From positions 1 to 64,000 of the forward strand of contig NZ_QPJM01000018.1 of the NCBI RefSeq assembly GCF_003337575.1: a DNA stretch of 64,000 nt, written 5' to 3'. Source of the DNA: Phyllobacterium bourgognense. Its GTDB lineage: Bacteria; Pseudomonadota; Alphaproteobacteria; Rhizobiales; Rhizobiaceae. Shown piece after piece: positions 47,427 through 61,651 of this stretch (positions are counted from its first letter, which is position 1; each line of letters starts with the position of its first letter). Below the pieces are notes generated by a model. The model did no database searches, was not told the DNA's origin, and saw nothing but the letters and a program-made list of their open reading frames with translations. A program made the position numbers and the translations under genes.

Positions 47427-47578
47427 CTGGCTGTCCTTTCAGCAATCGATCAAGACCAACGACTCTAAAGCCGCCTCACAGGTGGTGGATAAACAGCCAG
47501 CGAGGAAACGCCTGTTAGAAATGATAGTTGGTGACAAATACAAGGGAACTCCCATATAACTCTATAAGGAGTGTTTTG

Positions 47579-48109
47579 ATGGGTTTAACAGCGTTCAAGC
47601 AGGAATTTGAAGGATTTGCCGCGGAGTTGCCGACTTCTCCGAACTTAGTCGCGCGCCCTCTGATAAATGATCCGAACCCCATGAGTGACTTCAATGAAGC
47701 ACTCAAGCTTTATCAGAGACAGGTCTCTATTTGGTACTCGAATCTCCTGATCTCGCTTGAAAAGCTCAAAAGTCTCTTCGATAAGGCTTCCGAAGACGAA
47801 ACCGGCAATTCAACGAATTTTTTAATAGATGAAGCAATCCCTCAAGTTACCGCGCGGCTGGATCAGATTGCTAAGTCCTTACAAACCAACATTGATTTGG
47901 TACCTACCTTGGCTGTATCTGATTTGGCCAAAGAAATTGGAAAGCGCGGTCAAGCCGCAATGAGTGTGCAGCTCGAACTTATATACGACGTCAAATCGAA
48001 GATTGATTCCGTTGTCGAGGAATATCATCCCGATAATAAACCAGTGGGTGATGTGCTCAAATCAATCGATGATTTTGATGCTTGGTTTGACCGGATTGCC
48101 GCTCAATAA
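47579..48109 (+). CDS. Helical protein paired with a RelE-like toxin, possible antitoxin (176 aa)
   Basis: Unrecognised and almost wholly alpha-helical, with coiled segments around 55-75 (WYSNLLISLEKLKSLFDKA) and 95-160. No ribbon-helix-helix, AbrB, Phd or HTH motif is visible, and it is about twice the size of usual type II antitoxins. AAGGAG ribosome site seven bases before the ATG. The TAA overlaps the ATG of the downstream RelE-like gene (TAATG). Local AT content is higher than in the neighbours, which fits recent acquisition. The antitoxin role is inferred only from position and coupling. Confidence 0.72.
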   Translation: MGLTAFKQEFEGFAAELPTSPNLVARPLINDPNPMSDFNEALKLYQRQVSIWYSNLLISLEKLKSLFDKASEDETGNSTNFLIDEAIPQVTARLDQIAKSLQTNIDLVPTLAVSDLAKEIGKRGQAAMSVQLELIYDVKSKIDSVVEEYHPDNKPVGDVLKSIDDFDAWFDRIAAQ

Positions 48110-48384
48110 TGATCGAGCTGGACTATACAACCCGCTTCAAGAAATCGCTCTCAAAATTGTCTTCTGATCAACAACTGCTGGTCAGGAATGCACTGAAGCT
48201 TTTCGTAGGTGAACCTCATCATCAGGATCTTGATTTCAAGAAACGCAGCGGTTCGAAATATTACACTATCCGAGCTGATATTCGGCTGCGCATAGCGATG
48301 ACCAAGGTCGGTGATCGGTTCTATCTGCTGGAACTAACGGGGAACCACGACGACATCAACTCGCTAGATAGGCAAAAAAGATAG
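48109..48384 (+). CDS. RelE/ParE-like toxin (91 aa)
   Basis: Small basic protein matching the RelE/ParE superfamily: N-terminal helices YTTRFKKSLSKLSSDQQLLV, then the four-strand core with DFKKRSGSKYYTIRADIRLRI and FYLLELTGNHDDI. The Lys/Arg residues before and in the sheet fit ribosome-dependent mRNA interferases, though a catalytic tail residue cannot be fixed. Start overlaps the upstream stop. Confidence 0.78.
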   Translation: MIELDYTTRFKKSLSKLSSDQQLLVRNALKLFVGEPHHQDLDFKKRSGSKYYTIRADIRLRIAMTKVGDRFYLLELTGNHDDINSLDRQKR

Positions 48385-51429: not shown

Positions 51430-51457
51430 CTTGGAAAATCCTTGAGAAGTGCTATAT
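51430..51457 (+). promoter_or_regulatory. Sigma-70-type promoter of structured RNA copy A
   Basis: CTTGGA, 16 bases, CTATAT, close to the alphaproteobacterial consensus CTTGAC / CTATAT. The same boxes at the same spacing precede RNA copy B at 61172-61199. Predicted start near 51464. Confidence 0.65.
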
Positions 51458-51463
51458 TCTCAC

Positions 51464-51700
51464 TTGGATAGGAGGCAGGCCGAAGCCCACCTCCCAATCC
51501 TAGTTTAGCGCGAATGAGACCCGAACCGTGAGTGTCCAGCTCGTTCGGGTCTTTCGCACTTCTAGGGTGATGCGCAGCGGTAGAAACCACATTCGCTTCA
51601 CTCCAAGTTTTGACAGCATATTGGCCGTATGCCTCAGCCAGGGAGGCCCATCCCCCTGATTGCACCGGCTGGCACGGTGCTGCTGCTTCGCCGTCAAAAC
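51464..51700 (+). ncRNA. Candidate structured RNA, copy A
   Basis: At least five hairpins can be drawn and each has a counterpart in copy B with changed but still paired stems. H1 51467-51500 (GGAGG/CCTCC). H2 51510-51557 (GACCCGAAC/GTTCGGGTC, 16-base loop CGTGAGTGTCCAGCTC). A 29-base block at 51564-51592 differs from copy B at two positions only and folds with the next bases. H3 51616-51632 (GCATA/TATGC, loop with GGCC). H4 51639-51658 (CAGGG/CCCTG, loop AGGCCCATC). H5 51662-51680 (GCACCG/CGGTGC, loop GCTGGCA). The 3' end is uncertain. I recognise no known family. A small peptide starting at the ATG at 51570 is an alternative but is not preserved in copy B. Confidence 0.68.
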
Positions 51701-51904: not shown

Positions 51905-51979
51905 TGGGGCGTAGCCAAGTGGTAAGGCAGCGGTTTTTGGTACCGCCATTCGGAGGTTCGAACCCTCCCGCCCCAGCCA
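51905..51979 (+). tRNA. tRNA-Gln (TTG)
   Basis: Acceptor TGGGGCG pairs with CGCCCCA, D-arm AGCCAAGTGGTAAGGCA, anticodon stem GCGGT/ACCGC with loop TTTTGGT giving anticodon TTG, T-arm GGAGGTTCGAACCCTCC, and encoded GCCA end. Confidence 0.97.
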
Positions 51980-60730: not shown

Positions 60731-60924
60731 GAGTGGCGATGCGACGATGGCAAGAACTGGCCTGATGCGGGAGAAAATCTTTGGGGTGCTCATTCCCGTC
60801 CATCTGCTGGCGACGGGATCAGGGAACGGACAATGTAGCCATCAGACACGGACCCGCGAAGGGGACCGTTGCAGCGGGAAACATCGCATCGCTCCCGGCA
60901 CACCCCGTCCGGTTCGAATTTCAG

Positions 60925-61100
60925 TATTGATGGCAGGTCTCCTGGCTCGCGGGTCTCGGTTTGGCCCGGCCTTCCCGGTTTTCACCAGTGGCGCTATCGA
61001 GCCTCACTCACCGCTTACAGTTGCGGGGGCAGCCACGGTCTCGGTCCCTTTTGGGTACGCCTCACCGTGTTCCCTTTTCATCTCCAGCGTTGTCTTGCCG
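60925..61100 (-). ncRNA. Cobalamin riboswitch
   Basis: On the minus strand the canonical order is present: an upstream GGGAACACGGTGAGG region, GCTGCCCCCGCAACTGTAAG, then GCCACTGG, GGGAAGGCCGGG and the B12 box GCCAGGAGACCTGCC (complement of 60932-60946). It precedes the BtuCDF-like operon read in the same direction and should repress it when adenosylcobalamin is bound. About 280 bases separate it from the first start codon, so control may be by termination rather than at the ribosome site. Confidence 0.95.
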
Positions 61101-61171
61101 GAGAAACCATCACAATAACCAGTAGAGGAAAGAACGTTCGAAGGGAACCTCTTTCGCTGAAACACATAGAG

Positions 61172-61199
61172 CTTGGAAAAAAGTCGAGAAATGCTATGT
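61172..61199 (+). promoter_or_regulatory. Sigma-70-type promoter of structured RNA copy B
   Basis: CTTGGA, 16 bases, CTATGT; same layout as for copy A. Predicted start near 61206. It points away from the cobalamin riboswitch. Confidence 0.6.
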
Positions 61200-61205
61200 T
61201 TGGGA

Positions 61206-61445
61206 AGGGAGTGGAAGGCAAGCTTTCGCCTGCCTTCCGTTTTCCTGGTTTTATTGAAAGTGGACCCGGACCGTTATTGACCAACTCGTCCGGGTCTTTT
61301 TCAATTCCAGGGTGATACGCAGTGGTAGAAACCACATAGCGTCACCTCCTGTCTTGCGAGCAAGGCCCTTGCTCTAGCTCGGAGAGGCCTATCATCTCCG
61401 ATACACCGGCTGGCTCGGTGTTCTCTGCTTCACTCACAAAACTCG
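61206..61445 (+). ncRNA. Candidate structured RNA, copy B
   Basis: Homologue of the RNA at 51464. H1 61213-61238 (GGAAGGCA/TGCCTTCC). H2 61254-61304 (GACCCGGAC/GTCCGGGTC with outer TTGAA/TTCAA, loop CGTTATTGACCAACTC). Conserved block 61309-61337, whose GGTGA/TCACC and GTGGT/ACCAC pairings are clear. H3 61358-61374 (GAGCAAG/CTTGCTC). H4 61379-61401 (TCGGAGA/TCTCCGA, loop with GGCCTATC). H5 61403-61421 (ACACCG/CGGTGT, loop GCTGGCT). The 3' end is not defined. It lies between the riboswitch leader and the transglutaminase-like gene; I see no conserved reading frame. Confidence 0.68.
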
Positions 61446-61651
61446 ACGAAGGTGCCTGTGATCGACCTTGGCGGCAACGGATGCAGGGTTGCATTCGTCA
61501 GGTCGCGACGGCGTTCCAAGTTGTGTGGCCAAGCCCGTTTATGCGGCAACGGTCTGATGTGCTAAAATAATTGGCAGGGACATTTAACAAAGGCGTAGAG
61601 TAGGCTACGGTTCTTCGGGGATAAGCATTTCAGAAAAAAATTTGAGGCGAC

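Follow-up and report, generated by a model that had tools for sequence, protein, structure and literature searches.

Two matching loci in the window, the whole 64,000-nt stretch of Phyllobacterium bourgognense DNA that was analysed, raise the question of what they encode and on which strand. Copy A lies at 51430-51700 and copy B at 61172-61445, and a first-pass annotation had taken both for a structured non-coding RNA read from the plus strand. The shared features that it listed are all present at both loci, namely CTTGGAAA...CTAT(A/G)TT boxes at equal spacing, a 29-base block that matches apart from two differences, and a shared order of hairpins, and the paired stem changes between the two loci proved real on re-inspection.

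The loci had also been described as a structured RNA that was not recognised, and a scan of both window copies against Rfam 15 bore this out, with no family at the gathering cut-off. The sub-threshold match to BASRCII26 (24 or 16.4 bits vs a gathering score of 218) is essentially one hairpin. For seven relatives, Rfam placed no family at the element, and the one match (E up to 1) lies elsewhere. A tmRNA or tRNA identity was rejected, as the tRNA/tmRNA scan gave tRNA-Gln at 51905-51979, off the element, as its sole match. A bacterial Y RNA acting with Ro60 was also rejected, a TROVE protein being found in 0 of 19 Phyllobacterium genomes. The window does carry a cobalamin riboswitch (133.5 bits, 60915-61126, minus strand), which lies near copy B and shares its strand with an ABC transporter cluster (FecCD and periplasmic-binding domains).

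Covariation and loop-loop pairing strongly support the first proposal that an RNA fold is under selection, in this case one whose loops interact. The covariance model R1 (21 sequences, 233 positions, 61 pairs) was built from plus-strand sequence, so the alignments lean towards the given pairs, and they were checked with the structure-blind alignments A2, A3, and A9. Across 125 distinct copies, 88.3% of paired cells were filled by pairs, compared with 76.6% after shuffling and at most 48.1% with partners slid by 1-3 columns. The covariation also holds with these added homologues, since 61 of 71 pairs had changed on both sides, against 44.7 by shuffling. In a structure-blind alignment of 21 copies, two-sided changes were observed in 30 of 72 pairs vs 12.3 by shuffling; four of five measures agree there, the exception being further pair types, which were not above the shuffles (175/500).

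The architecture comprises two four-way domains, with P0 around P1, P2, and P3, and P4 around P5, P6, and P7. P0 (helix 1) was 92.7% paired over the 125 copies and had two-sided changes in 6/6 pairs. Two loop-loop contacts outside R1 also covary. The P5-P6 contact reads GGCC:GGCC in 75/125 copies and GGCT:AGCC in 35/125, so two of the loops originally called fixed in fact covary. The P2-P7 contact reads CCAG:CTGG, with variants such as CCAA:TTGG, CAAG:CTTG, and TCCAG:CTGGA; 90.3% of its cells are paired, and one pair is unpaired in 48 copies on the plus strand. Conservation of P2 and P3 is partly codon constraint, because both helices overlap an open reading frame described below.

Compensatory changes alone cannot give the strand, and a general lesson of this locus is that a "non-coding" structured RNA may be a tiny gene read backwards. 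Wobble pairs offer one way to decide, because RNA tolerates G.U but not A.C, and the plus reading shows an excess of A.C (501 A.C vs 187 G.U in 125 copies, and 177 vs 87 in 45 representatives), which assigns the wobble pairs to the minus strand. Minimum free energy was lower on the minus strand in 115/125 copies and consensus-structure energy in 105/125. Mean z-scores were -6.81 (minus) vs -4.84 (plus), with minus better in 29/32 cases (25 shuffles each), and RNAalifold energy was lower on minus in 4/4 alignments, although narrowly in A9 (-49.6 vs -46.8). For the window copies themselves, the minus and plus folds have energies of -108.7 vs -95.9 kcal/mol in copy B and -120.6 vs -100.1 kcal/mol in copy A. 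Measured against 200 dinucleotide shuffles, the plus-strand fold gave z of -5.0 (copy B) and -4.4 (copy A), while the minus-strand fold gave z of -7.35 and -7.18 for the two window copies. Read on the minus strand, the P1 loop is a GNRA tetraloop in 87/125 copies (GAAA is the commonest, and GCGA, GAGA, GCAA, GGAA, and GUAA also occur) and UUCG in 5/125. The one dissenting helix is the top of P2, which favours plus (G.U 25, A.C 2). Wobble counts, fold energies, RNAalifold, and tetraloops thus run against the plus-strand RNA first proposed, and there is strong evidence that the structure belongs to the minus strand.

Nor is the element purely non-coding, since an mRNA that encodes a conserved protein of ~29 residues, with its own Shine-Dalgarno sequence, can be read on the minus strand. 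The minus-strand alignment shows GGAGGTGA, then ATG-TGG, and then an open frame. A strict script, which required a Shine-Dalgarno-like site, a start, 24-45 residues, an open frame 0 and, in effect, a basic motif, recovered the ORF from 160 of the 195 distinct copies. Its length is 28-30 residues in 156/160 (28 or 29 in 147 and 30 in nine), the Shine-Dalgarno matches at 6/6 positions in 126, and the start is ATG in 151. The alternative frames are closed over the first 27 codons in 159/160 (+1) and 127/160 (+2). Among the 35 copies that miss the script rule, a related ORF could be seen by eye in ~15, such as MSLRRWKLEVSLAKDADRWIMTVRISFVI in locus L095, and the remainder are frame-broken (L289), cut (L162), or without an ORF. 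Residues P5, R16, W19, and R24 are kept in 92-97% of distinct 27-31-mers, and the consensus of 23 chosen peptides is MWxxPxSITLxxKKTRTxWxxxxRVxFxx. Changes by codon position number 10325/6846/13933, with an omega-like ratio of 0.32 over 1823 close, non-independent pairs, and the ORF is under purifying selection. A protein gene on the minus strand is therefore almost certain. The first-pass annotation had named a match to a known protein-coding family as an outcome that would count against it, and this is in part what was found, because the minus strand carries a conserved ORF and Shine-Dalgarno. The peptide itself resembles no catalogued family: scans of the 23 peptides gave nothing significant in Pfam (best E 0.048 in one member; DUF2909 at 0.066 in two), PHROGs (best E 0.086 in one), or NCBIfam (best E 0.021 in one).

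In the order of the proposed mRNA, copy B on the minus strand begins upstream with the conserved element CAACCCTGCATCCGTTGC (61474-61491), the proposed -35 region of the mRNA promoter, whose -10 is weak by eye. The 5' UTR domain follows at 61353-61439, where stem P4 closes around hairpins P7, P6, and P5, and the P5 loop (61364-61367) and P6 loop (61386-61389) are GGCC each and complementary to one another. The Shine-Dalgarno GGAGGTGA is at 61342-61349 (coordinates counted from the upstream sequence) and is paired in the predicted fold. The ORF occupies 61251-61337 (ATG 61337, stop 61251) and encodes MWFLPLRITLELKKTRTSWSITVRVHFQ. Hairpin P3 (61312-61345) spans the Shine-Dalgarno and start codon, while P2 (61244-61311) lies mainly within the ORF, and its loop (61281-61285) could pair with the P7 loop (61409-61414). 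P1 (61212-61238), with a GAAA tetraloop, is 3' of the stop codon, and P0 (61208-61349) joins 61346-61349, within the Shine-Dalgarno, to 61208-61211 in the 3' UTR. On the plus strand, the facing promoter (61172-61200) is the predicted start of a ~95-nt antisense RNA ending near P2.

Copy A follows the same plan on the minus strand. Covariation and the predicted fold place its 5' UTR domain P4-P7 at 51608-51699; the Shine-Dalgarno GGAG is at 51601-51604 (again counted from the upstream sequence), and the ORF at 51500-51592 (ATG 51592, stop 51500) encodes MWFLPLRITLEVRKTRTSWTLTVRVSFALN. P3 is predicted at 51567-51601, P2, mainly within the ORF, at 51499-51566, and P1, with a UUCG tetraloop, at 51471-51494. 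The conserved boxes of the facing, antisense promoter are at 51430-51458 on the plus strand. No upstream CAACCCTG element was seen beside copy A.

The plus-strand promoter boxes of the first description are thus conserved, but they lie on the 3' side of the gene and point into it, which would yield an antisense RNA. Over 125 copies, this promoter has a mean score of 10.4 of 13 vs 7.3 when shuffled, and its spacer is 16 or 17 in 114/125. A sigma-70 consensus scan flagged the plus promoter of copy A only, and not that of copy B. In 105/125 copies, the strong stem of P2 is followed on plus by 4-6 T within eight bases, and we read the plus G.U bias at the top of P2 as a candidate antisense terminator, although the terminator scan of the window copies did not flag it. 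Four 3'-truncated copies retain the stretch from the plus promoter through P2; the truncated copies in L028 and L044 continue 3' into an inverted repeat built on CCTCATGGTGAGCCCCGTCGAACC.

On the minus side, a CAACCCTGCRTTCGTTGC-like promoter element was observed in 65/106 Phyllobacterium copies, with a -10-like AT stretch ~20 bases on and the P4 stem 31-54 bases past its TTG. The downstream inverted repeat CAAC..GTTG was considered as a 3' hairpin and reads instead as part of this minus-strand promoter. Within the window's own genome, 6/8 sites of the element adjoin copies, and 5/11 copies are without it within one mismatch. Conservation is wider for the plus promoter than for the minus one, which was not traced in the plasmid and phage copies.

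Taken as a mechanism, minus-strand transcription would start just before stem P4 and produce, in order, the 5' UTR domain (P4 around P7, P6, and P5, including a kissing contact between the P5 and P6 loops), a strong Shine-Dalgarno, the ORF, and a 3' hairpin. The Shine-Dalgarno is paired by P0, with the 3' UTR, and by P3 (prediction plus covariation), and both would shut it in the full-length mRNA, which for this reason should be silent. P2, the ORF hairpin, would be tied to the 5' UTR through the second loop-loop contact. From the far end, the plus promoter may drive a short antisense RNA across the 3' UTR and the last part of the ORF (P1 and P2), and the silent folded mRNA might be opened for translation by processing or by loss of the antisense RNA. 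Control by such a plus-strand antisense RNA is, in our view, probable, while the chances that the peptide is a toxin, as a putative function, are about even. We infer both transcripts, processing, translation, and toxicity from the arrangement described here.

A gene for a cationic protein of ~29 residues on the minus strand, with a facing promoter and an mRNA predicted to close on itself, most resembles a type I toxin-antitoxin locus with a new peptide family, and by analogy we lean slightly towards this reading. Type I toxin ORFs are expected to have fewer than 60 residues, in line with the lengths given above, and an mRNA structure that hides the Shine-Dalgarno is found here in the predicted fold and the covariation. 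Known type I loci occur as tandem and dispersed copies and are carried on plasmids and phages, habits that the element fits with its own tandem and dispersed copies and its plasmid and phage carriage. Counting against the type I reading, some Phyllobacterium genomes hold 10 or more syntenic copies, which is unusual for an addiction module.

Among known systems, AapA/IsoA of Helicobacter encodes a ~30-residue protein in several copies in each genome, hides its Shine-Dalgarno by long-range pairing, and has a facing antisense promoter, and the element shares each of these: the protein size, the multiple copies, the hidden Shine-Dalgarno, and the facing promoter. It differs in the four-way domain of its 5' UTR, which has two loop-loop contacts, its occurrence in Hyphomicrobiales, and a toxicity that is only putative here; the AapA peptide family is one that we take to be distinct from the present microprotein. 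Ibs/Sib of E. coli are multi-copy microprotein genes with antisense RNAs, as are Ldr/Rdl of E. coli according to the available part of PMC8167048, and the element is similar in being a multi-copy microprotein gene with a putative antisense RNA. It is linked to neither pair by any Rfam or protein-family match. In Hok/Sok, as described in that part of PMC8167048, 5'-3' pairing keeps the full-length mRNA silent, which is what is predicted here, and chromosomal and plasmid copies are likewise found. In contrast to Hok/Sok, no mok-like overlapping frame was noticed here by inspection, the putative antisense covers the 3' UTR and ORF end, and the peptide is not a clear membrane helix.

Outside the toxin-antitoxin systems, the Sinorhizobium sRNAs SmelA075/SmelA099 are multi-copy, with hairpin modules presumed to block ribosome-binding sites (PMC3927594, as far as its available text goes). 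The element resembles them in being multi-copy in Rhizobiales and in having a CCTCC run on the plus strand; unlike theirs, the run here is the complement of the element's own Shine-Dalgarno. The Rhizobiales-1 motif (Weinberg 2010) is represented in PMC2864571 by a table row without an Rfam accession. No earlier description of the element was found in the open-access literature searched, in which Rhizobiales-1 figures through that table row only, and a word search of the text available for PMC11109978 gave no rhizobial term.

The own genome holds 11 copies by BLASTN and R1, one of them broken, and a twelfth listed match is an opposite-strand shadow. They are spread over contigs C1 (five), C3 (one), C6 (one), C17 (two, one broken), and C18 (the two of the window). 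With R1, matches were found in 20/20 Phyllobacterium genomes (2-18 each, opposite-strand shadows included), 28/121 genomes and 25/109 genera of a family sample, 18/297 genomes of an order sample, and, under strict filters, 1/190 genomes of a class sample, which is the own genome; the own genome is also counted in the family and order samples. Strict filters were applied whenever more than 40 genomes were searched, so these prevalence counts are lower bounds. BLASTN with copy B gave matches confined to the genus (19/39 genomes), so R1 reaches further. A pattern scan of named genomes returned 47 stretches, of which 43 were confirmed by R1 (all except L119, L121, L122, and L157), in Phyllobacterium, Rhizobium, Sinorhizobium, Pararhizobium, Mesorhizobium, Pseudaminobacter, Aureimonas, Methylobacterium, Chthonobacter, and uncultured Rhizobiales.

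The element was also observed on 32-38 plasmid records, the number varying with the DNA query and including Roseibium plasmids, in 10 records of Rhizobium phages (~115-122 kb, one record being a duplicate), and on four IMG/VR contigs of ~15 kb; a second viral pattern scan found nothing. A tblastn search with one peptide matched 14 phage and 43 plasmid records (E up to 1), among them plasmids of Agrobacterium and Shinella and a phage of Ochrobactrum. The tblastn matches listed have no annotated feature, and almost all of the listed DNA matches have none either, one falling under "hypothetical protein". The gene is thus present in 20/20 Phyllobacterium genomes, rhizobia, Methylobacterium, plasmids, and phages, and is almost wholly unannotated at the matches listed.

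The main rival to the type I reading keeps the same minus-strand microprotein gene and self-closing mRNA and takes the peptide to be something other than a toxin, such as a regulatory, phage-exclusion, or establishment (anti-defence) protein common to chromosomes, plasmids, and phages. We regard it as a serious possibility that falls short of an even chance. The peptide has a mean GRAVY of 0.11 and a mean net charge of +4.9, so it is cationic and of low hydrophobicity, unlike the hydrophobic membrane helix that is typical, though not universal, in type I toxins. On plasmids, its neighbours include DUF3846 ("psiB"), DUF932, DUF736, and ParB-like proteins, methyltransferases, and a Fic protein, in lists drawn from incomplete plasmid gene tables. 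DUF3846 occurs once in 6/10 plasmids, each time 1.3-2.2 kb away from the element, and these six are not independent because five are Sinorhizobium; DUF932 has three matches in two plasmids, two of them within 0.6 kb of the element. The available text of PMC11541004 names psiB and methyltransferases in plasmid leading regions, and a word search of it gives no DUF name; the plasmid neighbour genes appear to resemble the leading regions described in that text.

Rhizobium phages retain the element, which also fits a peptide other than a toxin, as do the chromosomal copies, where 80 Phyllobacterium loci fall into 14 neighbourhood groups common to several species (L163 without an R1 match). Against this non-toxin reading, a facing promoter and a Shine-Dalgarno locked by the 3' UTR are features that characterise genes for type I toxins, and a shared neighbour protein was sought in Phyllobacterium and none was common to more than 4 of the 14 groups. 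Seven protein clusters recur in at least two groups, one of them (ABC-transporter-like by eye) in four and six in two. The gene just past P4 is co-directional with the microprotein gene in 13/13 annotated plasmids and 5/6 phage records, and it ends at most 17 bases from the element in 5/13 and 4/6, respectively; these counts leave out two plasmids and one phage contig without annotation and a GTA-like contig.

A stand-alone structured non-coding RNA on the plus strand, as first proposed, could draw on the conserved plus promoter, the covariation, and the G.U bias at the top of P2, but the strand tests and the conserved minus-strand ORF make it very improbable. Two more specific plus-strand roles were rejected. 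As a leader or riboswitch, it would have a downstream gene that is opposite in 35/105 Phyllobacterium copies and 13/13 annotated plasmids, and as an anti-Shine-Dalgarno sRNA, it would act through a CCTCC run that is the complement of the microprotein's own Shine-Dalgarno.

That the element is a single-stranded DNA promoter or entry element of plasmid leading regions, like Frpo/ssi in the available text of PMC11541004, is hardly credible. It shares with these a conserved fold among establishment-type gene clusters, and its plasmid neighbours are of the leading-region type, with the gene on the 3' side (plus reading) opposite in 13/13 annotated plasmids; unlike them, it encodes a protein, with a conserved ORF and Shine-Dalgarno, and it is found on chromosomes and phages as well, while the wobble bias and GNRA loops are in keeping with RNA. 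A mobile repeat or transposon-like sequence, suggested by the multiple copies, the plasmids and phages, and some broken copies, is just as hard to sustain against the identity of dispersed copies (~63-77% for the eight full-length ones of the own genome outside the window vs 78-96% for 16 tandem pairs in the genus), the neighbourhood groups shared between species, and one compared locus that shows replacement rather than clean insertion.

Returning to the microprotein gene, we also offer a more specific proposal, which is tentative and on the whole doubtful: it may represent a new Hyphomicrobiales family that is not a classic membrane toxin, is found on chromosomes, plasmid establishment regions, and phages, and is translated only when its two-pseudoknot mRNA opens. 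The microprotein could be a chromosomal phage- or plasmid-exclusion factor carried in turn by mobile elements, or an establishment or counter-defence peptide. If the locus is a type I toxin-antitoxin system, it would offer a natural model for studying how RNA controls toxins in bacteria associated with plants, one in which the opening of the mRNA is testable per base pair. Should the peptide prove not to be a toxin, its carriage by phages and in establishment-type regions of plasmids would suggest that it takes part in host conflicts with mobile elements.

Several individual loci had features of their own. Tandem copies, two each, were observed in L278, L279, and L281, and in L106 (7600-8229) two tandem copies lie between the terminase and portal genes of a GTA-like cluster. 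An Ancylobacter plasmid (L285, 2162-2398 and 3498-3731) carries two copies separated by 1.1 kb, with a methyltransferase gene and a ParB-like gene nearby. In L190 (4594-4917), L195 (4529-4853), L183, and L184, the element contains ~40-90 extra bases. In Rhizobium phage B1VFA (L105, 8000-10491), genes for nicotinamide phosphoribosyltransferase and of the NadM type lie ~2-3 kb away from the element and are possibly an NAD-restoring counter-defence, and RHph_X66 also has a nicotinamide phosphoribosyltransferase gene near the element. Finally, the window itself has two ORFs at 47528-48384 on the plus strand, one of 193 and one of 91 residues, for which Pfam gave no match, and the relative G008 has a third copy of the element at the matching site, which looks like a replaced copy.
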